NCBI RefSeq assembly: GCF_003363135.1
Contig: NZ_QRBB01000002.1
Coordinates: 248,001 to 312,000, forward strand
From: Alteriqipengyuania lutimaris
GTDB taxonomy: Bacteria; Pseudomonadota; Alphaproteobacteria; Sphingomonadales; Sphingomonadaceae
Direction: 5' to 3'
DNA length: 64,000 nt
The notes beneath the pieces were generated by a model that searched no databases, was not told the origin of the DNA, and saw only the letters and a list, made by a program, of their open reading frames with translations. Made by a program: the position numbers and the translations under genes. Below, piece after piece: positions 964-54,492 of this stretch (position 1 is its first letter; every line of letters starts with the position of its first letter).

Positions 964-2925
964 CTACAGCCCCACGCGGATCCCGGCGAAGGCCCCGCGC
1001 GGCGCCTGGTTGTAGCCGGCGGCGGTTTGGTACTCCTCGTCGAACAGGTTCTCGACCCGCCCGAAGACCTCGACCGGCCGCTCGCCCGCGATCAGCCCCA
1101 GCGGCACGCTCACGCGCAGGTCGAACACGGTGTAGCCATCCAGAAGCACGTTGTTGCCCGCATCGTCGAACGCCTCGCCCACGATCCGCAGATCGCCGCC
1201 GATGACGGGCGCGCCGATGGTTTCGGGCAGCGGCGCCCAGTCGAGCGACAGCGTGCCCGCGTGTTCGGGGCGCCGGGCCAGCCGGTTGCCGAAATTGGCG
1301 GTGCCATCGCTGCGATTTTCGGCCTCGGTATAGGCATAGGCGGCGCGCAGCCGCAGACCCTCGACCGGCGATGCGCCCGCTTCCACCTCGATCCCGCGCG
1401 CCCGCGCCTGCGTCACATTGTCGTAGGTGCCGAAGGGCCGGTTTTCGCAGATGCCGGTCTGGTCCGGACAGCCAATAAAGGCGATCAGGTTCTCGCTGTC
1501 GCGCTGGAAGGCGGTGACGCTGGCATAGAACGGCGAAATCCGCGTCCCGTAGGCGAGCCCCAGATCGTAGCTGGTGCTTTCTTCGGGCTGGAGCGCCGCG
1601 TTGCCGTAGTCGGAGAAGAGCTGGTACAGCGAAGGCGCCTTGAAACCTTCGCCCACGCTCGCGCGCAGGCGCAGGTCGGGCACGATCTCGTAGGTGAAGT
1701 CGCCGCCGAAGCTCGTCGCTCCGCCGAAATCCTCATGTTCGTCCTGCCGCAGGCCGAGATGGCCGGAAATGCCGCGGAATTCGATCCCGAGCTGCGCGTA
1801 GGCCCCGAAGATCGAGGTTTGGGCGTCGCTGACCGCCCCGTACGACGTGCTCTCGTAGTCGGACCAGAGGTTCTCGGCCCCGAAATTGACGATCAGCGGA
1901 CCGATCGGCCGCCATTCGCCGCGCAGTTCGACCCGTTCGGAACCCCCGTCGCTTTCGAACGTCGGGTCGAGCCCTGAGCCGGGCAGGTTCGCGCGCTCGA
2001 TATCGGATACCGAATAGGCCCCGCGCAGGTAGAGCGGCCCGCCGTCGTAGAGCGCGCCGACCACGCCCGAAAGCTGGCGCGTCTCCTGCACCTCGGGCGT
2101 GTCGCCGAGGGTGAAGCTGGGCGCAGGGAAGCCATCGATTTCGAGCGTGCCGTCGGCATAGCGGCCGCTCGCGAAGATTTCGAACGTGCGGCTGAGATAG
2201 GCGCGCCCGCGCAGGTTGTAGGCCTGCTGGCGGAAACCGTCGGGCTCGGTCCCGCTGGCGGCGGCCGAGAAACCGTCGGTCGTCAGGTAGCTCGCCGATC
2301 CGCCGAGAAAGCCGATATCGCCCGCAATGCCGCCTTCCACGCTGGTGGAAACGGTCTCGCGCGAGCCCGCCTCGACCGAGCCGGCGAGGCCCGTGCGCTC
2401 GAAAGTAGAGGCGACGAGCACCCCGGCGAGCGCATCCGCGCCCCAGATCACGGAGTTGGAGCCGCGCAGCAGTTCGACCTTGGCAAGGTTGCTGCTGGTC
2501 AGCGTGCCGAAGTCGAAACCGCCAGCGGGCGCGGCGGTATCGGCCACCCGCACGCCGTCGATCAGCACCAGCAACTGGTCGTTGCTCGCGCCGCGCACCG
2601 ATACGCCGGTCGTCGCGCCCAGCCCGCCGGTGCGGTTGATGGTGACGCCGGGCACGCGCTGGAGCACGCGGGTGAAGTCGGGGCCCTGGATGTCGGCGAT
2701 TTCCTCCGCCCCGATCACGGTCACGGGCTGGCCTGTATCCTCGACCTCGCTCGGGCTGCCGGTGACGGTGATCGTCGTGGCTTCGTCGTCGAGGGTGTAG
2801 GCTTCGGACGCCAGAACCGGATCGCCCCCGCCCTGCTGCACGTCGTCCTGCTGCACGTCGTCCTGAGCAAGCGCCGGTGTGGCCAGCCCCAGGATCGAGC
2901 ACCCGAGAAACAGAAATTTACGCAT
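964..2925 (-). CDS. btuB: TonB-dependent outer-membrane receptor, vitamin B12 type (BtuB-like)
   Basis: The product has 653 residues, starting at MRKFLFLGCSILG. It has a Sec signal peptide ending near ALAQ. A TonB-box-like TITVTG (about residues 38-43) precedes a plug domain (about 45-160) with motifs VTVIGAEEI, RVPGVTINR and VLIDGVRV, followed by a 22-strand-type beta barrel to the C-terminus. The 654-codon length is typical of BtuB. A longer reading frame extends upstream but runs into the riboswitch, so the internal ATG after the RBS-like GGAGAAG is preferred. Just after the signal peptide a 15-bp unit is tandemly duplicated, giving QDDVQQDDVQQ. It takes up cobalamin across the outer membrane using TonB energy, and is first in an operon with btuF and btuC. 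Confidence 0.9.
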   Translation of the reverse strand: MRKFLFLGCSILGLATPALAQDDVQQDDVQQGGGDPVLASEAYTLDDEATTITVTGSPSEVEDTGQPVTVIGAEEIADIQGPDFTRVLQRVPGVTINRTGGLGATTGVSVRGASNDQLLVLIDGVRVADTAAPAGGFDFGTLTSSNLAKVELLRGSNSVIWGADALAGVLVASTFERTGLAGSVEAGSRETVSTSVEGGIAGDIGFLGGSASYLTTDGFSAAASGTEPDGFRQQAYNLRGRAYLSRTFEIFASGRYADGTLEIDGFPAPSFTLGDTPEVQETRQLSGVVGALYDGGPLYLRGAYSVSDIERANLPGSGLDPTFESDGGSERVELRGEWRPIGPLIVNFGAENLWSDYESTSYGAVSDAQTSIFGAYAQLGIEFRGISGHLGLRQDEHEDFGGATSFGGDFTYEIVPDLRLRASVGEGFKAPSLYQLFSDYGNAALQPEESTSYDLGLAYGTRISPFYASVTAFQRDSENLIAFIGCPDQTGICENRPFGTYDNVTQARARGIEVEAGASPVEGLRLRAAYAYTEAENRSDGTANFGNRLARRPEHAGTLSLDWAPLPETIGAPVIGGDLRIVGEAFDDAGNNVLLDGYTVFDLRVSVPLGLIAGERPVEVFGRVENLFDEEYQTAAGYNQAPRGAFAGIRVGL

Positions 2926-3029
2926 GTCTTCTCCATCACAAGCCTTGCTGTCGCTCATGACGGAAGGCGTCGGACGCATTGCGACACCCTTCCTCCGCTG
3001 CCCTCGGTACACCCCGCCCGTGGCCGAAC

Positions 3030-3250
3030 GACGTATCGCAGGCAGGTCTCCTGGCTCCCGGATCGTCGCGGCTCCCCCCACCTTCCCGTTCCCGCGCCGA
3101 AGCGTCGAGGGACAGTGGCGTTTTGGGCGGACCGCTCCCCGGTCACAGTTGCGGGGGCAGCCGGGGCTTGTCCGCTCCGCTATTCGCGGTCCGGCTCCCC
3201 GTTCCCTCTTAGGCGGGCGGGCCATCCGCCCACCCACACCTGCAATACGC
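3030..3250 (-). promoter_or_regulatory. Cobalamin (AdoCbl) riboswitch
   Basis: On the minus strand the conserved core elements of a cobalamin riboswitch occur in order. Near 3150-3165 there is CCCCCGCAACTGTGACCGGG, then GCCACTGTCCC near 3110-3120, then the closing segment GAGCCAGGAGACCTGCC at about 3042-3058. All of these lie upstream of btuB, about 110 nt from its start. Known function: binding of adenosylcobalamin represses expression of the downstream genes. The exact 5' end (GGTGTGGGTGGGCGG region, about 3245) is approximate. Confidence 0.93.
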
Positions 3251-3449
3251 GGGCGGCCGTAGGCGCATTCACGCAGGCGGGCAACACCGCTCTTTCGAGC
3301 CGTTGGACAAGTTAGCTGGGCGTTAACCAGATTGCTTTACCTGTAGGTACGATATGTCCCGTAATGTAACCGTGCGGTCAGTCCCAGGCGCGCCCCAACC
3401 CCTATCGTCTTAGACTGACCGTATCTTTTCCGCTTCAGTCAGGATTGCT

Positions 3450-4565
3450 TTGCCCCAGGCCTCCCGCCCGACACCACCGGCCGCGCGTTCGCCGAGAACC
3501 CGTAGGCCATGGCGCGGGATTGCGGTGCTGGTGGGTGCCATCACGCTCCCCGCGATGGGCGCGCAGGCCGAGTGGCGCATGCAGCAGGTCGCCCCGCAGG
3601 CGAGCGAGATCGTGGCGAATGCACAGATCGAACCGCTCGAGAGCGAGCGGGCGGGCGCGACCTTCCCCGGCTCCGCGCTCTATTTCCTCGCCGATCCCCC
3701 CGCTGCGGCCAGCTTTGCCAATGTCGCGGTCGACACACCGGGCGCGGTCAATCCGATCGCGGCGTGGAACGGCGATCCCGATGCGGCGATCGCGATCGAG
3801 ACGGCGGGGCCGGCCGCACGCGGCTTCGTCAGCCGCGGTACCGGGATCGACAAGGCGCGCGCGCTCGATTGCCTTGCCAAGGCGGTCTATTACGAGGCCG
3901 CGAGCGAGAGCGAGGGCGGCCAGCGCGCGGTGGCGCAGGTGGTGCTCAACCGCGTGAGCCATCCGGCCTATCCCAGGACCGTGTGCGGCGTCGTCTACCA
4001 GGGATCGCAGCGGCGCACCGGCTGCCAGTTCACTTTCACCTGCGATGGGTCGCTGAACCGCAAGCCTTCGGCGACGCACTGGGCACGCGCGCTCTCGGTG
4101 GCGCGCCGTGCGCTCTCGGGCGAGGTCTATGGGCCGGTCGGCCTCGCGACCCATTATCACACGACCTGGGTGAATCCCTACTGGGCGCCCAGCCTCGCGC
4201 ATATCGGCACGATCGGTGCGCACCGCTTCTACCGCTGGCCGGGCGCCGCCAGCCGCCCCGCGGCCTTCAGCGATTTCTACTCCGGCGGCGAACCTTCGCC
4301 CTCGCCCGCACGCGCGGCCCAGGCCAGCGATCCCGCACCCGATCCGGTGGAAGTCGCGCGGGACTATGCAAGCGCGGGCGCAGCGCGCGAGCCGGCATCG
4401 GCATCGGCACCGTCCTACACCGTGGCTGCCGGAGCGAACGGCAGGCAACCAGACCCGGCCGCCGGCCGCACGCAGCCCGATCGCCCGCAACCCGCGACCG
4501 AGGGACCGGGCAGCGTCCGGCCGGAATATGCCAATAGCGGGCAGTGGATTTCCCGCCCGCAATAA
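3450..4565 (+). CDS. SleB-type cell wall hydrolase
   Basis: The product has 371 residues. An N-terminal hydrophobic stretch (GIAVLVGAITLPAMGAQA, about residues 24-41) looks like a signal peptide or anchor. The Hydrolase_2 (SleB) domain spans about 138-265 and includes ALDCLAKAVYYEA, where the Glu of YYEA is the expected catalytic acid, then VAQVVLNRV, CQFTFTCDG and ATHYHTTWVNPYW. The C-terminal 100 residues are Ala/Pro-rich and probably disordered. The family cleaves peptidoglycan (lytic transglycosylase type). The frame opens with TTG at 3450 and no better ATG is present before the hydrophobic segment, so the start is uncertain. It is transcribed away from the btu operon. Confidence 0.85.
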   Translation: MPQASRPTPPAARSPRTRRPWRGIAVLVGAITLPAMGAQAEWRMQQVAPQASEIVANAQIEPLESERAGATFPGSALYFLADPPAAASFANVAVDTPGAVNPIAAWNGDPDAAIAIETAGPAARGFVSRGTGIDKARALDCLAKAVYYEAASESEGGQRAVAQVVLNRVSHPAYPRTVCGVVYQGSQRRTGCQFTFTCDGSLNRKPSATHWARALSVARRALSGEVYGPVGLATHYHTTWVNPYWAPSLAHIGTIGAHRFYRWPGAASRPAAFSDFYSGGEPSPSPARAAQASDPAPDPVEVARDYASAGAAREPASASAPSYTVAAGANGRQPDPAAGRTQPDRPQPATEGPGSVRPEYANSGQWISRPQ

Positions 4566-9784: not shown

Positions 9785-12655
9785 ATGGGTAACGAAAACC
9801 AGTCATTTCTGCCGGAACTCGGCGATCAGGAAGGTCCGCAGAAAGGTCCGAGCTGGGCGAATCCCCGCTGGCCGCTGACCGATCTGGGCAGCGAAGCCGA
9901 CCTGACGCAGGCGCTCGACCCGACCGCGATGAAGGCGGCGGTGAAGAAGGCGGCGGACAAGGCGGGCAAGCCGGTCGACCAGGCCAGCGTGACGCAGGCC
10001 GCGGAAAACGCGATCCGCGCCATGCTGCTGATCCGCACCTTCCGCGTGCGCGGGCACCTCGCGTCCGATCTGGACCCGCTGGGCCTGTCCAAGCGCGAAC
10101 TGCCCGAAGACCTGAAGCTCGAATGGCACTTCCCGCCCGAGGCGATGGATCAGGAGATCTACGTCGGCGGCAATCTGGGCATGGAGTGGACCACTCCGCG
10201 AGAGCTCTACCAGGTGCTCAAGGCCAATTACTGCGGCAAGGTCGGCCTCGAATACATGCATATCTCGGACGTGGAGGAGCGCCGCTTCCTCCAGGACCGG
10301 ATCGAGGGGCCCGAAGAGGTCATCCAGTTCACGCCCGAGGGCAAGCGCGCGATCCTTTCCGCCGTGATCCGGGGCGAGGAGTTCGAGAACTTCCTCGGCA
10401 AGAAATACGTCGGCACCAAGCGCTTCGGCCTCGATGGCGGCGAGGGGATGATCCCCGCGCTGGAGGCGGTCATCAAGTACGGCGGCCAGATGGGCGTGCG
10501 CGAGATCATCTACGGCATGGCGCACCGCGGGCGGCTGAACGTCCTCGCCAACGTGATGGCCAAGCCTTATCGCGTGATCTTCCACGAATTCTCGGGCGGC
10601 AGCGCCAATCCCGAGGATGTCGGCGGGTCGGGCGACGTGAAATATCACCTCGGTACCAGCACCGATCGCGAATTCGACGGCATTGCCGTGCACATGAGCC
10701 TGGTGCCCAACCCCAGCCACCTCGAAGCGGTCGACCCCGTGGTGCTCGGCAAGGCGCGCGCGCAGCAGGCAATCCGCGACGACCTTAAGCGGCACGAGCA
10801 GGTGCTGCCCGTGCTGATCCACGGCGATGCGGCCTTCGCGGGCCAGGGCATCGTGTGGGAGACGCTGAGCTTCTCCGGCATTCCCGGCTACAACACCGGC
10901 GGCGTCATACACTTCATCATCAACAACCAGATCGGCTTCACCACCAGCCCCAAGTTCGCGCGCAGCTCGCCCTATCCCAGCGACGTGGCGAAGGGCGTCC
11001 AGGCGCCGATCCTGCACGTGAACGGCGACGATCCCGAAGCGGTCACCTTCGCCTGCAAGCTGGCGATCGAATATCGCCAGAAATTCGGTCGCGATATCGT
11101 GATCGACATGTGGTGCTATCGCCGCTTCGGCCACAACGAAGGCGACGAGCCGAGCTTCACCCAGCCTCAGATGTACGATGCGATCAAGAAGCATCGCAAG
11201 ATCAGCGTGATCTACTCGGATCGCCTGCTGCAGGACGGCGTGATCGACGATGGCTTCGTCGAAGGCCAGCGCGAGGAATTCACGACCCACCTGCAGGAGG
11301 AATTCGAGGCGGGGCAGAACTACCAGCCCAACGAGGCCGACTGGTTCGGTGGCCGCTGGGCGGGCCTCAACAAGCCGGCGGACCCCGAAACGGCGCGGCG
11401 CGGCGTCGAGACCGCAATTCCCAAGAAGCTGTTCGACAGCCTTGGACGCACGCTCACCACCGTGCCCGACGAGATCACGATCCACCGCACGCTCGGCCGC
11501 GTGCTCGATGCCAAGCGCAAGATGTTCGACGATGGCGAGGGCCTGGACTGGGCGACCGCCGAGGCGCTGGCCTTCGGCAGCCTCGCCACCGAAGGCTACA
11601 ACGTGCGCCTGTCGGGCCAGGATTCCGGCCGCGGCACCTTCAGCCAGCGGCACGCCGTGTGGCACGACCAGAAGGAAGAGGGGAAGCAATACGTCCCGCT
11701 CGCCACGCTGCCGCACGGCAAGTTCGAAGTCTACGACAGCCCGCTGTCCGAATATGGCGTGCTCGGCTTCGAATACGGCTTCGCGCTCGCCGATCCGAAA
11801 ACGCTGGTTCTGTGGGAAGCGCAATTCGGCGATTTCGCCAATGGCGCGCAGATCATCATCGACCAGTTCATCGCCAGCGGCGAGGTCAAATGGCTGCGCG
11901 CCAACGGTCTCGTGATGCTGCTGCCGCATGGCTATGAGGGCCAGGGGCCCGAGCACAGCTCGGCACGGCTCGAACGCTTCCTGCAATTGTGCGCGAACGA
12001 CAATATCCAGGTGTGCAACATCACCATGCCGCACAACTACTTTCATGTGCTGCGCCGGCAGATGCTGCGTCCGTTCCGCAAGCCGCTGATCATCATGACG
12101 CCCAAGAGCCTGCTGCGTCATCCGATGGCGAAGAGCGGCGCAGAGCAGTTTATGGGCGACAACCAGTTCAAGCGGATCCTGTCGGACCCGTCGATGGAGC
12201 CGGACAGCGCCGCCGACAAGAAGATCAAGCGCCTCGTGCTGTGTTCGGGCAAGGTCGCATTCGACCTGATCGAGCAGCGCGACGCCGAGGGACTCGAGGA
12301 TGTCTCGATCGTGCGGATCGAGCAGCTCTACCCCTTCCCCGGCGATCCGCTGGCGCTGCGCATGAGCCGCATGGACAATCTGCAAGAAGTGGTCTGGTGC
12401 CAGGAAGAGCCGCGCAACAACGGTGCGTGGTTCTTCGTCGAGGAACGGATCGAGGCTGCGCTCAAGGCCGCGGGCAAGGACGGCATGCGGCCATCCTATG
12501 CGGGCCGCGAGGAAGCGGCATCGCCCGCCACCGGCCTCGCCAAGCGTCACAAGGCGCAGCAGGATGCGCTTGTCACCATCGCCCTCGGCCTTGCCGATGG
12601 CGGCGCGGCCAAGCGCGCACTCAAGAAAACCGAAACCGCCGAAAAGAAGGTCTGA
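9785..12655 (+). CDS. sucA: 2-oxoglutarate dehydrogenase E1 component
   Basis: The product has 956 residues from ATG 9785, which has an AGGTGAG-like ribosome site just upstream. An ATG 36 nt earlier is in frame but adds an atypical peptide. Family hallmarks in order are the N-terminal helical E2-binding segment, [13 protein letters not shown], the thiamine-diphosphate region [34 protein letters not shown], and the C-terminal [20 protein letters not shown]. It decarboxylates 2-oxoglutarate and transfers the succinyl group to the lipoyl arm of SucB. It is followed 7 nt later by sucB. Confidence 0.97.
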
Positions 12656-47290: not shown

Positions 47291-47604
47291 TTTTCGGGGC
47301 CTCTCGACTGGCAGGCGAAATCTCGCACGAGCCTGAAACGCTCCACCCGAACGCGCCCGCGAGGGACCACCCGGATTACTTTGACGGCTGCCCTTCCCTT
47401 ACGAGAAAGAGGCCGACGCGTTACGCGACAGCCCCGGGACATGACCGGCAATGTTCAGCTCTATAAGCCTTGGCGAGAGCTGGGCCCTGCCTCGGTTGGG
47501 TGTGCGCTTAGTAGGATTTGGGGTGGGGGTCAAGGGATACACCGTATTGACCAACCCTAGCCCGTGAGCGATGCGAACGATCATAGCGAGGAGCATGTGG
47601 AATA

Positions 47605-48645
47605 ATGCAAAGAAGAGCGGAGTTTCGACCCTTCAGTTGGCTTCATGATCTTTGGAGACGAGAGCAGCTCGATCTGTCACCGCCCTACCAAAGACGTAGC
47701 GTTTGGTCGGAAAGGTTCCGGCATGACTTCGTAACGACAGTTACGCTAAATTATCCCTGCCCTGCCATATTCCTATACGAAGAAATCCGGCCAGACGGAA
47801 CCTTCAACTACAAGGTAGTTGACGGAAAGCAGCGCCTCACAACACTCTTGGACTTCGTATCCGGGAATATATCCGTTCCCGAAGACCATCCATCACCGGC
47901 AATCCGAGGACTTACCTTCGATGCACTTCCTGACCCGACAAAGTTGGCCATTTGGCGCTATCAGTTTTCGGTAGAATTCGTTGAGCAGGAAAACGAAAAT
48001 CTAATAAATGATATATTCAACAGAATAAACAAAAACGTAGCAAAACTATCTCAACAGGAATTACGACACGCCCTTTTCAGCGGCGAATTCATTACTAGTG
48101 CAGAATACCTCACTGAGTACATGGAAGAGAAGCTCCCCCAACGATTTCCAAACATTGCACCGCAATCACGGCGCCAGATGAAGGACGTAGAAAATGCCTC
48201 ACTAATGCTTTTATTTATTGAGAACGGAGAGCGATCGTTTTCTCAGTCAGATTTGGACAAAGCATATAGGGATAGGGAAGAGGAATGGCCCGAACGGATC
48301 GCGACGACACAGACCTTCAGGGACGCAGTAGACTTTATCTCCCAGGTTTTGACTATCGATACCAACGGCACGATCTTGAATAGTCGACTTAAGAATCAGG
48401 CCGATTTCTACTCCTTGTTCGGCGCGGTAGTAGAACTGCTTCGACAAGGAAGCCTTCCCATCGCGGACGACGCGAAAGATAGGCTACTTGAGTGGCTCGA
48501 CGAACTGCGAGACGTTGACCAAGGCAACGTAGCCACGGGAACACACCCAGAGACTGAAGCCTATCTCGCTGCCGCTCGAGCGGCGTCAAACGACTCCGGG
48601 CCCCGGCGGGTTCGCATAAATAAACTCAAGGCCGTGTTGGCCTAA
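47605..48645 (+). CDS. DUF262-domain protein (GmrS/ParB-like nuclease-fold), island gene A
   Basis: The product has 346 residues. The DUF262 hallmarks are present: PPYQRRSVWS (26-35), the nucleotide/catalytic-type loop VDGKQRLTTLLDF (72-84), and FNRINKNVAKLSQQELRHAL (138-157), equivalent to the N...LS.QEL motif. DUF262 is a ParB/sulfiredoxin-like fold found in the type IV restriction enzyme GmrSD and other phage-defence proteins. No C-terminal DUF1524 HNH domain follows; the rest is helical. Composition is markedly AT-richer than neighbours, suggesting transfer. A GAGGAG ribosome site lies 10 nt upstream. The stop directly abuts the next gene's ATG. Confidence 0.8.
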   Translation: MQRRAEFRPFSWLHDLWRREQLDLSPPYQRRSVWSERFRHDFVTTVTLNYPCPAIFLYEEIRPDGTFNYKVVDGKQRLTTLLDFVSGNISVPEDHPSPAIRGLTFDALPDPTKLAIWRYQFSVEFVEQENENLINDIFNRINKNVAKLSQQELRHALFSGEFITSAEYLTEYMEEKLPQRFPNIAPQSRRQMKDVENASLMLLFIENGERSFSQSDLDKAYRDREEEWPERIATTQTFRDAVDFISQVLTIDTNGTILNSRLKNQADFYSLFGAVVELLRQGSLPIADDAKDRLLEWLDELRDVDQGNVATGTHPETEAYLAAARAASNDSGPRRVRINKLKAVLA

Positions 48646-49605
48646 ATGGCTTCGATTGACACCCTTTACGCGAGCATAACGTCTAGAATAGACGCGGTGC
48701 ATAATATTGTTAACCCCGCCCTGTCTGACTTCACAGCAGGCAACGAGTTTCTTCTTACATCCCGAAAGAAGCGCCTGCCCTCGCTCTACGAAAAATTATT
48801 CACAGCGAGATACGCCAATATAAGCGAAGTAGATGACCTGCTGGCCTATACTATTGTCATTGACCTTCCATCACAGTCTCAGATTGTGGAGCGCTATCTG
48901 AAGCGCGCTTTTTCCGTTGAAACTATTAGAGGCCCGCAAACGCTTTTCGATGAACGTTTTTTCGATTTTGACAGCACGAGAGTTATTTGCCGCTTAGGCG
49001 CTTCTGGAGACGACTCCCATATACTGAACTCGATTTTATTCGAGGTGCAGATTAAAACGCTTTTGCAGTATGCTTGGTCTAAGATAACTCATCCTATCGT
49101 ATACAAGCCGGAAAAATATGATGCGCAGAAAAGTCGGCTTGCAGCAGAGACATTAGCGCGACTCGAGGCCGTCGATCGTACATTTCAAAACTTCGAAAAA
49201 ATATCCCCAACAGTTAAAACCGTGCGACGGCGCGAGATGGTCGGCGCAGACAAAATTGCTGCTATGTTTCGCAGTTTGCATGAGGATGGCACAATACCCT
49301 CAGAATTAAAGCCGGAAAGCGGCCGCCGAGTTAGCGAGTGCGTGTTCTCCGCCATCAGATCGGATAAGCAGAGAGACTTGGACACCATAATTCCTCAAAT
49401 GCGTGAGTTCATTGCCAGACTCAATCCTATCCCCCGCTCTATCTCTTTGTTTGAGTTGGGCATAGTTTTCTTACACGAGAAAAACTACTTATATTTGGGC
49501 AGCAAGCGCAGGCCGAGATATTATTATATTTCTGATGAGCTAAAATCGTTATTCCCGGAGATGAAGGCGTTCGCACATGCGATGAGCCTCGAACCTCAGC
49601 CATAG
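48646..49605 (+). CDS. RelA/SpoT-fold nucleotidyltransferase-like protein, island gene B
   Basis: The product has 319 residues. I read residues 35-155 as a (p)ppGpp-synthetase-like fold: basic RKKRLPSLYEK (40-50), acidic EVDD (61-64) at the Mg-binding Asp position, and FEVQIKTLLQYAWSKITH (132-149), matching the EVQIRT...AW...H motif whose Glu is catalytic, followed by YK. The canonical GY.S.H nucleotide-stacking motif is not evident; DSTRVICRL occupies that place. Residues 160-319 are mainly helical, with a RRPRYYYIS stretch near the end. It abuts the DUF262 gene with zero spacing and shares its AT-rich composition. Substrate could be a nucleotide or a tRNA end; unknown. Confidence 0.7.
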   Translation: MASIDTLYASITSRIDAVHNIVNPALSDFTAGNEFLLTSRKKRLPSLYEKLFTARYANISEVDDLLAYTIVIDLPSQSQIVERYLKRAFSVETIRGPQTLFDERFFDFDSTRVICRLGASGDDSHILNSILFEVQIKTLLQYAWSKITHPIVYKPEKYDAQKSRLAAETLARLEAVDRTFQNFEKISPTVKTVRRREMVGADKIAAMFRSLHEDGTIPSELKPESGRRVSECVFSAIRSDKQRDLDTIIPQMREFIARLNPIPRSISLFELGIVFLHEKNYLYLGSKRRPRYYYISDELKSLFPEMKAFAHAMSLEPQP

Positions 49606-49652
49606 AACTGCCGCTGTCCTACTTCCCCATATTCTGCAATCTACCTGCGGCT

Positions 49653-50591
49653 ATGCCCTCAGATGAGTCTTTCGATGGGTCCGCCGAGGACCGTCGCCCG
49701 AACACGCCCTCCCCGGCTCCACGCGATCTAGACCCCGCCACGGGGCAGACCGACTGCCACCGGCGGAGGGATGGGTCCGCCGAAGACCGTCGCCCGAACA
49801 CGCCCTCCCCGGCTCCACGCGATCCAAGCTCCACTTCGGGGCAGGCCATTTGCCACCGGCGGACGGGTCGCCAGGCCACCTCCGCCGTGGCCTACACCCG
49901 CCCCGCGCCCGAGGCGGACGATCCGCTGCTCGACTTTGCGCCCTACCTCCACCCGCACCCGCGCTCCAACTCGATCACGCCCGAGCGGCAGCGGCGGTTT
50001 GTCGCCACGCTCGCGGCCACCGGCATCGTCACGCAGGCGGCGCGCTCGGTGGGCAAGAGCATGGAGGCGCTCTACCGCCTGCGCGCGAAGCCGGGGGCGG
50101 AGGGGTTTGCCGCCGCGTGGGATGCGGCGCTGGAGCGCGGGGTGCAGCGGCTGGAGGATTGCGCGCTCGAACGCGCGCTGCAGGGCACGCCCACGCCGAT
50201 CGTCTCGGGCGGGAAGCTGCTGGGCACGTGGAACAAGCCGGACAACGCGCTGCTGCGCTTCCTCCTCCAGCATCGCCTGCCCGCGCGCTACGCCGCCGAC
50301 AGCCACGTCGTGCCCGGGCACCCGCTCTACGAGCGCATCCGCACCGAGGTCCTCGAACAGCGCAGGCGCGAACGCGCGAAGAGCGAGGAGGAGATTTTCG
50401 CCAGCATCGATCGCAAGCTCGCGAACATCCGCTCGCGGCGCGCGGCGTATGCGGCGCGGGACGCGGACGGGGGAGTGGCGGAGCCGGACGACCCGAAGGG
50501 GGGCCGTCGGGACACCGGCTTGGCGGACAGGGACATCGGGGAGGCCGGTATCGACGCTCCAGACGCGGGCGAAACGGACGCGCGGGGCTGA
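49653..50591 (+). CDS. HTH protein resembling phage terminase small subunits
   Basis: The product has 312 residues from ATG 49653, or 234 from GTG 49887. Residues 1-75 are encoded by two 96-bp tandem repeats, giving GSAEDRRPNTPSPAPRD twice, and may not be translated. The conserved part starts at YTRPAPEADDPLLDFAPYLH. A helix-turn-helix follows (RFVATLAATGIVTQAARSVG, then SMEALYRLRAKPGAEGFAAA), the pattern of TerS-like DNA-binding domains. The C-terminus is a charged helix rich in Arg/Glu. GC content is high, so it belongs to the host side of the island boundary. Function is unknown. Confidence 0.6.
   Translation: MPSDESFDGSAEDRRPNTPSPAPRDLDPATGQTDCHRRRDGSAEDRRPNTPSPAPRDPSSTSGQAICHRRTGRQATSAVAYTRPAPEADDPLLDFAPYLHPHPRSNSITPERQRRFVATLAATGIVTQAARSVGKSMEALYRLRAKPGAEGFAAAWDAALERGVQRLEDCALERALQGTPTPIVSGGKLLGTWNKPDNALLRFLLQHRLPARYAADSHVVPGHPLYERIRTEVLEQRRRERAKSEEEIFASIDRKLANIRSRRAAYAARDADGGVAEPDDPKGGRRDTGLADRDIGEAGIDAPDAGETDARG
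49674..49865. repeat. Two tandem 96-bp direct repeats
   Basis: Copy 1 (about 49674-49769) and copy 2 (about 49770-49865) both contain GATGGGTCCGCCGA followed by GACCGTCGCCCGAACACGCC and CCCCGGCTCCACGCGATC. They diverge in the middle (GACCCCGCCACGG versus AGCTCCACTTCGG). Both end with CCACCGGCGGA. The period is 96, a multiple of three, so the overlapping frame stays open. Spacing and length are not those of a CRISPR. Confidence 0.85.
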
Positions 50592-52807: not shown

Positions 52808-53674
52808 ATGGTCACTTCACAAGTTGCGAGCCAGCTCGGCAGCATCGAGAATGTCGTCGCGCTGAGCGCAGGCCAATACACCTCCGGTTCGCTCATCCTC
52901 ATGGTGAGCTACGGTGCACACTTCGCTTTCATCCTCTTCTTTCTCGCAATGGCCTGGCAACTCGCGCCACGCTATCGCATCGTCCCGATCCTGTCGGCGG
53001 TCGTCATGGCCTCGGCCGGCCTGAGCCTCCTGCGCGAATTCATGATCTGGGAGGAAAGCTACGAGCTTGTCGGCGGCGTCTACAATCCCCTGGCCGAGAA
53101 CACGAGCTTCACCAATGCTTTTCGCTACGGCAACTGGACGATCACCGTTCCGATCCTGCTGACCCAGCTCGCCATCGCATTCGGCCTTGCCCGGCCCGAA
53201 CTGCACAAGCGCGTGGTCCGGATGATCGTGCCCGCGCTGCTGATGATCTGGACCGGCCTGTATGGGCAGTTCGGCGAAACGGGCGACTTCCTGCGGCTCA
53301 ATATCTGGGGCATCATCTCGACCGTCTTCTTCGTCTGGCTGATCGTCGAGGTGCGCGGCGTGATCGGTCGCGGTGTCGCGACCAGTCCCGCCGAACTCAA
53401 GACGTGGCCGAAGAACATCTGGTGGTATTTCCTCGCGACCTGGGGGCTCTACCCCATCGCCTATGCCCTGCCCCAGCTCGGCTTTACGGGTGACGTGGTG
53501 GTCGTGCGCCAACTGCTGTTCTCGATCGCGGACATCAGTTCGAAGCTGATTTACGGCATCATCCTGAGCCGTTATGTTCTGCGTCGCAGCGCGCTGGAAG
53601 GCTATGTTCCGGCAGCCGAGGCGCTCGAAACGTCTCCGCTGGGCGCAACCGTGGCGTCGCAGCGAGGAGACTGA
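52808..53674 (+). CDS. Microbial rhodopsin with NTQ motif, predicted light-driven chloride pump
   Basis: The product has 288 residues with seven helices. Helix C reads RYGNWTITVPILLTQ (106-120), placing Asn109, Thr113 and Gln120 at the positions of Asp, Thr and Glu in proteorhodopsin (DTE). NTQ is the signature of bacterial chloride-pumping rhodopsins, while Na+ pumps have NDQ. The retinal Schiff-base lysine is Lys246 in ADISSKLIYG, with Asp242 as counter-residue. Leu117 aligns with the spectral-tuning Leu105 of green-absorbing proteorhodopsin. It would move Cl- inward using light. Five nt downstream lies a Blh-type gene for retinal. Chloride transport is inferred from motif only. Confidence 0.9.
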   Translation: MVTSQVASQLGSIENVVALSAGQYTSGSLILMVSYGAHFAFILFFLAMAWQLAPRYRIVPILSAVVMASAGLSLLREFMIWEESYELVGGVYNPLAENTSFTNAFRYGNWTITVPILLTQLAIAFGLARPELHKRVVRMIVPALLMIWTGLYGQFGETGDFLRLNIWGIISTVFFVWLIVEVRGVIGRGVATSPAELKTWPKNIWWYFLATWGLYPIAYALPQLGFTGDVVVVRQLLFSIADISSKLIYGIILSRYVLRRSALEGYVPAAEALETSPLGATVASQRGD

Positions 53675-53679
53675 CCGCA

Positions 53680-54492
53680 GTGCTGCGCATAGCGCAACCG
53701 AATGCAAGGGGGCTCCGGCTGGATGCCGGGGCCCTCGTTGCCGTTGTCGCGGTGGGTGCGGCGATTTCGGGTCAGCTGATCGGGGGCACGGTGTCTCTGG
53801 TCGTCGCCTTGGTCCTGTTCGCCGCAGGCGTGCTGCACGGGGCGGGCGACGAGAGCGCCAGCGGCATTCGCCCTTTTTCGATTCCCCACGCCGCGGCGTA
53901 CATCGCGGTCGCGGCGGCCGTCGCCGCGCTCTATCTGGCCGCGCCCCTCGCAGGCCTCGTCGGTTTTCTGGCGATTTCGGGCTGGCATTTCGCGACGAGC
54001 CGGTGCGGCTTCGACCCGGCGGCGCAAGGCGCGATCGCCGCGTGCGCGCTGGGCGGTAGCGCGCTGTTCCACGGCTCGCCGACAGCGCAGGTCTTTGCTT
54101 CGATAACGGGTGGGCCCGTACCCGATCTCTTGATCGGCGGGCTTGCTGCGGTGGGTGTCGCCGGAGTGGCAGCCGCCGGCTACGCGGCTGTGCGCGGGAT
54201 GCGGGGCGCATGGCATGCGATCCTCGCCGTGATGGCGGTCCTGCTGGCCGAACCCGTCCTTGCGGTGGCGCTCATCTTCTTCGTCGCGCATGCCCTTCCG
54301 GTGCAACAGGTTCAGGTCGCCCGATATGGCTTTGCCGATGTCCTGCGGGCGGGCCTGCCGACCGGTCTGCTCGCGCTCGGCGGCATCGCAGCGCTTGGCG
54401 CGCTCGCCTGGTCGGGCGTCGTCGCTCTTCCTTTCGCGGCGGCGATCGCTCTCGGGCTCGCCACGCCGCACATGCTGACCGAAGGGCTCTGA
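53680..54492 (+). CDS. blh: Brp/Blh-family beta-carotene 15,15'-dioxygenase-like protein
   Basis: The product has 270 residues from GTG 53680, with about 8 membrane segments. Family-type histidines are seen at His53 (VLHGAGDES), His103 (SGWHFAT) and His204 (FFVAHALP), and PHMLTE at the end matches the family's C-terminal PH motif. The usual H-x3-H pair in the sixth segment is not kept: Val208 is found where the fourth iron ligand is expected. Known role: cleaving beta-carotene to retinal for rhodopsin. Linkage to the rhodopsin gene (5-nt gap) supports that role, but the missing ligand leaves catalysis uncertain. Confidence 0.78.
   Translation: MLRIAQPNARGLRLDAGALVAVVAVGAAISGQLIGGTVSLVVALVLFAAGVLHGAGDESASGIRPFSIPHAAAYIAVAAAVAALYLAAPLAGLVGFLAISGWHFATSRCGFDPAAQGAIAACALGGSALFHGSPTAQVFASITGGPVPDLLIGGLAAVGVAGVAAAGYAAVRGMRGAWHAILAVMAVLLAEPVLAVALIFFVAHALPVQQVQVARYGFADVLRAGLPTGLLALGGIAALGALAWSGVVALPFAAAIALGLATPHMLTEGL

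Follow-up and report, generated by a model that had tools for sequence, protein, structure and literature searches.

A DUF262 gene joined to a RelA/SpoT-fold gene with a remodelled acceptor loop is probably an undescribed anti-phage defence system

We describe a two-gene unit in a 64,000-nt stretch of contig NZ_QRBB01000002.1 of Alteriqipengyuania lutimaris (the window, on which all coordinates are based unless a locus is named), in which a gene for a DUF262 protein (47605..48645, + strand, 346 aa) is directly followed by a gene for a RelA/SpoT homologue (RSH; 48646..49605, + strand, 319 aa). The pair is probably an undescribed anti-phage defence system. The explanation that we favour, and consider rather likely, is that of a horizontally moving two-gene system against phages (or against mobile elements), in which a DUF262 sensor would set free an RSH effector that acts on an unusual acceptor. 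The parts are of known kinds; their combination, and the remodelled loop of the RSH protein, are not described in the literature searched.

RESULTS

The two genes and their products

The stop codon of the DUF262 gene abuts the ATG of the RSH gene, leaving a spacer of 0 bp, and the adjacency of a DUF262 gene and a gene with a RelA/SpoT pattern is as the first-pass annotation of this DNA had described it. Both family assignments hold up in profile searches: Pfam places the first product in GmrSD_N (DUF262, PF03235; E=1.3e-20), a domain of the ParB/Srx type, and the second in RelA_SpoT (PF04607; E=1e-8), both above the cut-off, and a fold match (see below) agrees with the latter. Beyond these two domains, nothing in either protein rose above the Pfam cut-off, and a DUF1524 or HNH nuclease domain matched neither of them at E<=1. 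The first gene product had also been called a ParB/GmrS-like NTPase/nuclease, of which the ParB/Srx-type DUF262 assignment stands; we reject the protein as a nuclease, since a recognised nuclease domain is absent from it in Pfam.

Among PADLOC models, the DUF262 protein matches NsnA (1.1e-34) and PD-T4-2_A (3.7e-15), and the RSH protein matches the candidate model PDC-S33 (7.1e-6). A sequence search of the PDB with the DUF262 protein alone returned matches at chance level only. Two motifs of the DUF262 domain are conserved across 57 aligned sequences: PPYQRRSVW (47680..47706, + strand), in which P26, Y28, Q29, R30, S32 and W34 are invariant, and the nucleotide-pocket motif VDGKQR (47818..47835, + strand), in which D73 to R77 are invariant. 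The counterpart of the latter in GmrSD and SspE is DGQQR (PMC10952713), and the window protein has, like the GmrSD type IV restriction enzymes, a DUF262 domain with a DG[QK]QR pocket.

Recurrence and co-inheritance of the pair

The unit recurs in other genomes. We surveyed it from the RSH side in the best 80 of 161 loci obtained by scanning genomes with an alignment-based profile (a scan of genome contigs with the single RSH sequence found no relative, and an alignment was needed for finding them). A full DUF262 gene lies directly upstream of the RSH gene in 6 of these 80 loci, which belong to Aurantimonas (L003), Alsobacter (L004), Ancylobacter (L005), a member of the Rhizobiaceae (L006), a member of the Rhodospirillales (L007) and a member of the Bryobacterales within the Acidobacteriota (L008); a seventh, L009, retains only a C-terminal fragment of a DUF262 gene at a contig edge. 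These seven DUF262-linked loci are exactly the seven top RSH scores (E<1e-35). No DUF262 gene neighbours the RSH gene in the 73 lower-scoring loci, at least five of which (L041, L047, L073, L077 and L079) begin less than 600 bases from a contig end, too close for a verdict. The junctions between the two genes range from a 1-bp gap to overlaps.

The survey was also made from the DUF262 side, with a DUF262 profile against 296 and 204 genomes of two families, which yielded 18 loci. A sequence search had given 3,306 DUF262 relatives, 120 of them listed. The top five of the 18 loci (L105, L106, L107, L134 and L135; E<=5e-55) all adjoin an RSH gene, whose frame overlaps in L105; since L105 and L134 are known search centres, three of the five are new. 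No RSH gene stands beside any of the 13 weaker loci, whose partners are a downstream gene of ~200 aa in nine cases, a gene of ~280 aa in one and a kinase-like gene in L137 (assigned by eye and by tree position); L108 and L136 have no clear downstream partner, the latter having an overlapping 201-aa open reading frame (ORF) upstream. Two DUF262 loci from a search of the class, L084 and L085, have no clear partner either. The proposal that the two genes form one recurring unit is borne out from both sides.

The pair is also carried by mobile elements. It is found on a conjugative Rhizobium plasmid (L092), on related plasmids whose RSH gene is interrupted by an IS5 element (L093 and L096) and on the viral contigs L103 and L104, the latter with an interrupted DUF262 gene. 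The viral contigs gave these two loci with profile A6 and none with profile A1 or with the DUF262 protein; profile A6 also found none in 298 genomes of the genus of L018, a set that holds no known positive, so that this result shows little. Besides the conjugative plasmid and the viral contigs, the carriers of the pair thus include Alphaproteobacteria that are unrelated to each other and a member of the Acidobacteriota; horizontal movement is part of the explanation favoured above.

Phylogenetic trees of both proteins support a shared history. In the DUF262 tree (30 proteins), 12 of the 13 RSH-linked rows, among them L093 with its split RSH gene, form one clade (support 98/96), with L107 apart; kinase-linked proteins (3 rows, 100/100) and proteins linked to ~200-aa genes (9 rows, 98/98) form clades of their own. 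RSH linkage requires 2 changes on this tree compared to 10.0 in shuffles; many of the RSH-linked rows were found via RSH, which favours clustering, and the rows from the DUF262-first survey are free of that bias. In the RSH tree (35 proteins), 11 of the 12 DUF262-linked rows form one clade (100/100), which comprises clade I (the window, L003 to L006 and L106) and clade II (L007, L008, L092, L103 and L135; support 95/99). The split between clades I and II is common to both trees, and within the clades the forks differ, L092 and L103, for example, swapping places. As judged from these trees, the DUF262 and RSH genes are co-inherited.

An exchangeable cassette at a defence site

Comparison with relatives places the pair in an exchangeable cassette (47539..49611, 2,073 bp, no strand assigned), delimited by blastn of the flanks and by the boundary sequences, with a GC content of 48.3% versus flank values of 63.1% and 71.6%. 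Of its 2,073 bp, 2,001 belong to the two genes; thus, the pair alone is the cargo. The site, which lies upstream of rpsL in this genus, was fetched from eight of the nine same-genus relatives listed (G1349 was left out) and from one genome of another genus (L148). In seven of the eight same-genus relatives, blastn finds other cargo between the corresponding flanks. Conservation of the left flank ends at 47534-47538, and that of the right flank starts at 49612-49617 (at 49684 in L147); the boundary sequences match nearly base for base, on the left in 7/7 relatives and on the right in 6/7, L147 deviating there; the right boundary is absent from the eighth relative (L144) and from L148.

The cargo of five of these seven relatives matches PADLOC defence families. 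It consists of a reverse transcriptase (RT) and a helix-turn-helix (HTH) gene of retron type VI in L143 and L145 (RT_VI at 1.8e-60 and 6e-81, each with HTH_VI), an RT with a second gene of the defence-associated reverse transcriptase (DRT) type UG36 in L146 (6.8e-168), a TIR protein of the Thoeris ThsB family in L147 (3.1e-64) and an RT of type DRT6 in L150 (1e-122). The remaining two hold a DUF4062 protein with a 169-aa gene, without a match in PADLOC (L149, 821-2447), and genes that by eye only look non-defensive (L151). The site holds retron, DRT or Thoeris genes in sister strains and the DUF262-RSH pair here, and it may be mined for further unknown systems; the DUF4062 and 169-aa genes of L149 are a candidate for one.

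The exchange of the pair for defence genes bears on the possibility of a plain toxin-antitoxin module, in which the DUF262 protein would neutralise a toxic RSH protein and the role of the pair would be maintenance of mobile elements, not phage defence. Such a module would be consistent with genes that abut or overlap and with a place on conjugative plasmids, and toxic small alarmone synthetases (toxSAS) are found in toxin-antitoxin modules (PMC11782079). A chromosomal site at which the pair exchanges with retron, DRT and Thoeris genes points to defence instead, as do methylase and restriction neighbours (see below), and the upstream product is large and of an NTP-binding type, unlike a small antitoxin. 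We therefore regard the toxin-antitoxin alternative as unlikely.

Some further features of the site are recorded here. L145 and L147 have in common ORFs of 152, 76 and 81 aa, after which the left boundary occurs once more, a layout that would fit the serial addition of cassettes. In L146, a 307-aa protein (2870-3793) overlaps the UG36-type RT gene and has a weak PADLOC match only. The conserved right flank of the window contains a 39-bp direct repeat, 97% identical (49674-49712 and 49770-49808), inside an ORF (49653-50591) that has no Pfam match.

Methylase and restriction neighbours in clade II

A DNA-methylase gene or a BsuBI/PstI-type endonuclease gene adjoins the pair in six of eight clade II loci, two of which, L009 and L104, lie outside the trees and were assigned to clade II from their sequences and profile matches. 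The queries were the methylase and BsuBI/PstI endonuclease of L093 and the methylase of L092 (all three named from the plasmid annotation), together with the Eco57I-type methylase of L103 (from Pfam), so L092, L093 and L103 are query sources themselves and the other three were found by similarity: L008 encodes a single 876-aa protein that matches both methylase and endonuclease queries, L104 has an endonuclease match (7.6e-16), and L135 has a methylase match (2.5e-15). No such neighbour was found in L007 and L009, both of which are at contig ends. Identical queries found a neighbour in 1 of 28 RSH loci linked to NA37 genes, 0 of 18 linked to HD-domain genes and 1 of 15 other DUF262 loci, locus lengths varying between the groups. 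With this association and the cassette site, the pair is found at defence loci in two settings, and the defence context that the first-pass annotation had proposed is upheld.

Could the pair be an accessory of restriction-modification systems? In bacteria, PrrC guards EcoprrI, and the pair might likewise be a guard or back-up that acts when a restriction-modification system is blocked or failing. The neighbours in 6/8 clade II loci against 1/28, 0/18 and 1/15 in the controls are in favour of such a role; none was found in any of the six clade I loci, however, the clade to which the window belongs, and the window cassette holds the pair only. An accessory role is thus improbable.

The RSH protein keeps its catalytic core and has a rebuilt acceptor loop

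In the predicted structure, the synthetase fold occupies residues 1 to ~190 of the RSH protein, and its nearest folds by Z score are SAS1/RelQ (18.3) and SAS2/RelP (17.6); the protein has both the fold and the PF04607 profile of an RSH enzyme. Residues 190-319 have no structural match listed, which does not by itself show a new fold. Seven residues (R40, K42, K50, D64, E133, Q135 and H149) do not vary in an alignment of 35 RSH proteins. Motifs were further counted in the best 120 of 1,477 RSH relatives (E<=1e-3 in a large protein collection), the protein of the window included. The ATP-side motif R40-x-K42 (48763..48771, + strand) is kept, and the pattern RxKxxx[SA]xxxK, is present in 119 of the 120 relatives. 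The D63 D64 pair (48832..48837, + strand) contains D64, which we take to be the conserved metal-binding Asp position. Likewise kept is E133-x-Q135 (49042..49050, + strand), presumably the catalytic Glu motif, with E[IV]Q[IV][RK][TS] in 118 of the 120.

The acceptor side is rebuilt. The arginine of GxR is replaced by T69 in the window protein and by Thr or Ser in all 118 relatives that could be parsed (2 of the 120 could not), and FDFDSTR (F106-R112; 48961..48981, + strand) stands in place of the G-loop YxSxH. In the profile alignment to SAS1, F108 aligns with the G-loop Tyr and R112 with the His; an earlier profile alignment was less clear at this loop and can be read 1 to 2 residues off. FxFDxxR occurs in 120/120 of the listed relatives and YxSxH in 0/120, and the remaining active-site residues are near-invariant despite the loss of the loop. 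The string 'MFRSLH', elsewhere in the window RSH protein, is a chance likeness to the loop motif, away from the active site.

RSH proteins linked to NA37, HD, TIR or AbiH genes retain Yx[SA]xH in 23 of 23 cases, two of them with Ala; hence, FxFDxxR marks the main DUF262-linked family and not distant RSH proteins in general. The divergent DUF262-linked RSH protein of L107 also keeps the canonical loop (YRSVH) and GxR. The window protein has neither the G-loop Tyr and His nor the GxR arginine by which a (p)ppGpp synthetase is recognised; it shares with toxSAS and CapRel the synthetase fold with its ATP-side and catalytic residues, and has Phe (F108) at the position of their G-loop tyrosine. As far as residues can tell, the rebuilt loop argues against equating this protein outright with CapRel or FaRel2 or with a (p)ppGpp synthetase.

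The same residues bear on whether the RSH protein is a housekeeping or stress alarmone enzyme unconnected with defence. A RelA_SpoT domain is present, as such an enzyme would have, but the genome carries a separate long Rel (721-aa frame), and the patchy distribution, the low GC of the cassette, the non-canonical acceptor loop and the defence cargo that takes the place of the pair in sister strains all tell against that role. We regard it as highly improbable and reject it on patchiness and cargo exchange.

DISCUSSION

Proposed function

How might the two proteins work together? The DUF262 protein would be an NTP-binding, ParB/Srx-type sensor that responds to a sign of infection, most likely some state of DNA or nucleotides, and until then would keep its RSH neighbour inactive. 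The freed RSH protein would then move pyrophosphate from ATP onto a growth-critical acceptor, so that the cell would halt and phage production would stop (abortive infection). That acceptor would most likely be an RNA end such as the tRNA 3'-CCA, or another nucleotide; because the acceptor loop is rebuilt as FxFDxxR, GTP/GDP is improbable in this role, and the acceptor is probably bound in another way than by the RSH enzymes known so far. Pyrophosphorylation of tRNA CCA ends by toxSAS enzymes (PMC11559606) would be the best precedent for the outcome, arrest of translation. The sensor role is given to DUF262 because it is the common part of the RSH, kinase and ~200-aa pairs and of published DUF262 systems, and because the protein is without a recognised effector domain. 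The RSH protein would be the effector, keeping its ATP, metal and catalytic residues with a different acceptor loop.

The polarity might also be reversed, with an infection-triggered RSH protein making a nucleotide signal to which the DUF262 protein, with its nucleotide-binding ParB/Srx fold, responds. In cyclic-oligonucleotide-based anti-phage signalling (CBASS), an enzyme makes a nucleotide signal on infection and a responder protein reads it. RSH enzymes are reported to produce nucleotide messengers (PMC12691689), and DUF262 is described as an NTP-binding fold (PMC10952713). However, Pfam recognises neither a nuclease nor any other effector domain in the DUF262 protein, and DUF262 is the common upstream part, found with kinases and ~200-aa proteins in other clades and with HEPN or OLD proteins in published systems (PMC10952713). 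The reversed order seems quite unlikely to us.

Several observations weigh against a defence system with a DUF262 sensor and an RSH effector. With its acceptor loop lost, the RSH protein might have an altered chemistry or be inactive as a synthetase. The pair is rare in the sampled genomes: among 385 genomes of the class, DUF262 matches at E<=1e-20 occur in 3, of which one is the genome of the window and the other two reach 29-31% identity, and RSH matches at E<=1e-8 occur in 6, namely, the window's own (2.2e-145) and five at 2e-21 or worse that look like other RSH families; a search of 398 genomes of the phylum with the RSH profile of clade II (E<=1e-20) finds the window's own genome only. 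Methylase and restriction neighbours are found in 0/6 clade I loci, the window included. The cassette site also takes the non-defence-like cargo of L151 and the unmatched DUF4062 cargo of L149. Finally, the L107 pair (455-2508) lies outside the main clades and has the canonical loop; the union of RSH with DUF262 may have come about on two occasions.

A broader proposal is that the RSH proteins linked to DUF262 form a new subclass of enzymes: they would be ATP-dependent transferases with the RSH catalytic core, and their FxFDxxR pocket would take a substrate not used in this way by any alarmone synthetase or toxSAS enzyme known so far. DUF262, in turn, would be a general, exchangeable infection sensor wired clade by clade to an RSH, kinase or ~200-aa effector. 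This proposal is tentative, and we lean slightly towards its being wrong. There is a fair chance that the chemistry of the RSH enzyme is new.

Relation to known systems

CapRel defends through its RSH domain, and its G-loop tyrosine Y155 is reported to be needed (PMC9712102). CapRel (CapRel-SJ46), which with FaRel2 and other toxSAS toxins is among the closest known systems, is a distant fold relative of the window RSH protein. It is described as a fused toxin-antitoxin with Y155 essential (PMC9712102), whereas the window protein has FxFDxxR, its proposed control lies in a separate DUF262 gene, and its C-terminal part is without a structural match. A conserved change exactly at the defence residue of CapRel, with the other catalytic residues kept, leads to a testable prediction, that of a new acceptor. 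SAS1/RelQ and SAS2/RelP, the closest folds, differ from the window family in that the latter has the G-loop Tyr, the His and the GxR arginine replaced.

On the DUF262 side, the domain is described in PD-T4-2, Menshen, Dazbog, BrxU, GmrSD and SspE (PMC10952713). PD-T4-2 is a DUF262 protein with a HEPN partner (PMC10952713); the window unit shares the DUF262 gene and has an RSH partner instead of HEPN, and its DUF262 protein, although it matches PD-T4-2_A in PADLOC, scores better on NsnA. Menshen and Dazbog resemble the window unit in having a DUF262 gene without DUF1524, there needed for defence (PMC10952713). Menshen pairs it with a predicted OLD nuclease (PMC10952713), whereas the partner in the window is without an OLD-type domain in Pfam, and no RSH protein is named for either system in the text consulted. 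GmrSD, BrxU and SspE carry a DUF1524 nuclease part (PMC10952713), which Pfam finds in neither window protein. Among the papers listed by our literature search, which took in few subscription papers and no bioRxiv preprints, none has a title or displayed abstract describing a DUF262-RSH pair. Both families are known from phage defence, and the pair unites them, which no paper listed in that search does; DUF262 appears as a modular control protein with clade-specific partners.

Other RSH and DUF262 partnerships

The surveys brought up further two-gene arrangements. An NA37 (YejK/NdpA-type, nucleoid-associated) gene followed by an RSH gene, abutting or overlapping, was found in 28 loci (including L010, L014, L018, L020, L035 and L042) that span Pseudomonadota, Bacteroidota, Bacillota, Verrucomicrobiota, Myxococcota and Actinomycetota; the upstream genes of 5 of the 28 were run in Pfam and are all NA37 (PF04245), and those of 2 are fragments. 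L035 contains a second RSH gene (10361-11344) besides the one linked to NA37. Like the window pair, these are two-gene units with the RSH gene second and the genes abutting or overlapping; they differ in the NA37 partner, in an RSH protein that keeps Yx[SA]xH (17/17 aligned) and in forming their own clade (99/94). In 18 loci of Clostridia and Bacteroidia (including L011, L021 and L045), 3 of them run in Pfam, the gene after the RSH gene encodes an HD domain, either by itself or in fusion with an amidohydrolase. Single loci have an RSH gene beside a TPR-TIR gene (L074, 7088-8915, Bacteroidota) and beside an AbiH gene (L081, 6387-8654, Listeria rustica).

DUF262 genes likewise have other partners. 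A DUF262 gene overlaps a protein-kinase gene on an Asticcacaulis plasmid (L095, 3974-6116) and a Pseudanabaena plasmid (L097, 3938-6182), a further candidate two-gene system. A DUF262 gene is followed by the ~200-aa gene in L109 to L113 and L138 to L141. Five of these partners were run and gave no Pfam match over the cut-off and a single PADLOC match, to CARF_HEPN (0.007); by BLAST, several of the nine show similarity to one another, in part weak, and L113 shows none to the others. The ~200-aa partners are possibly HEPN-like, by analogy with PD-T4-2.

Elsewhere in the window, a rhodopsin gene (52808-53674) is followed by a carotene dioxygenase (BCD) gene (53680-54492).

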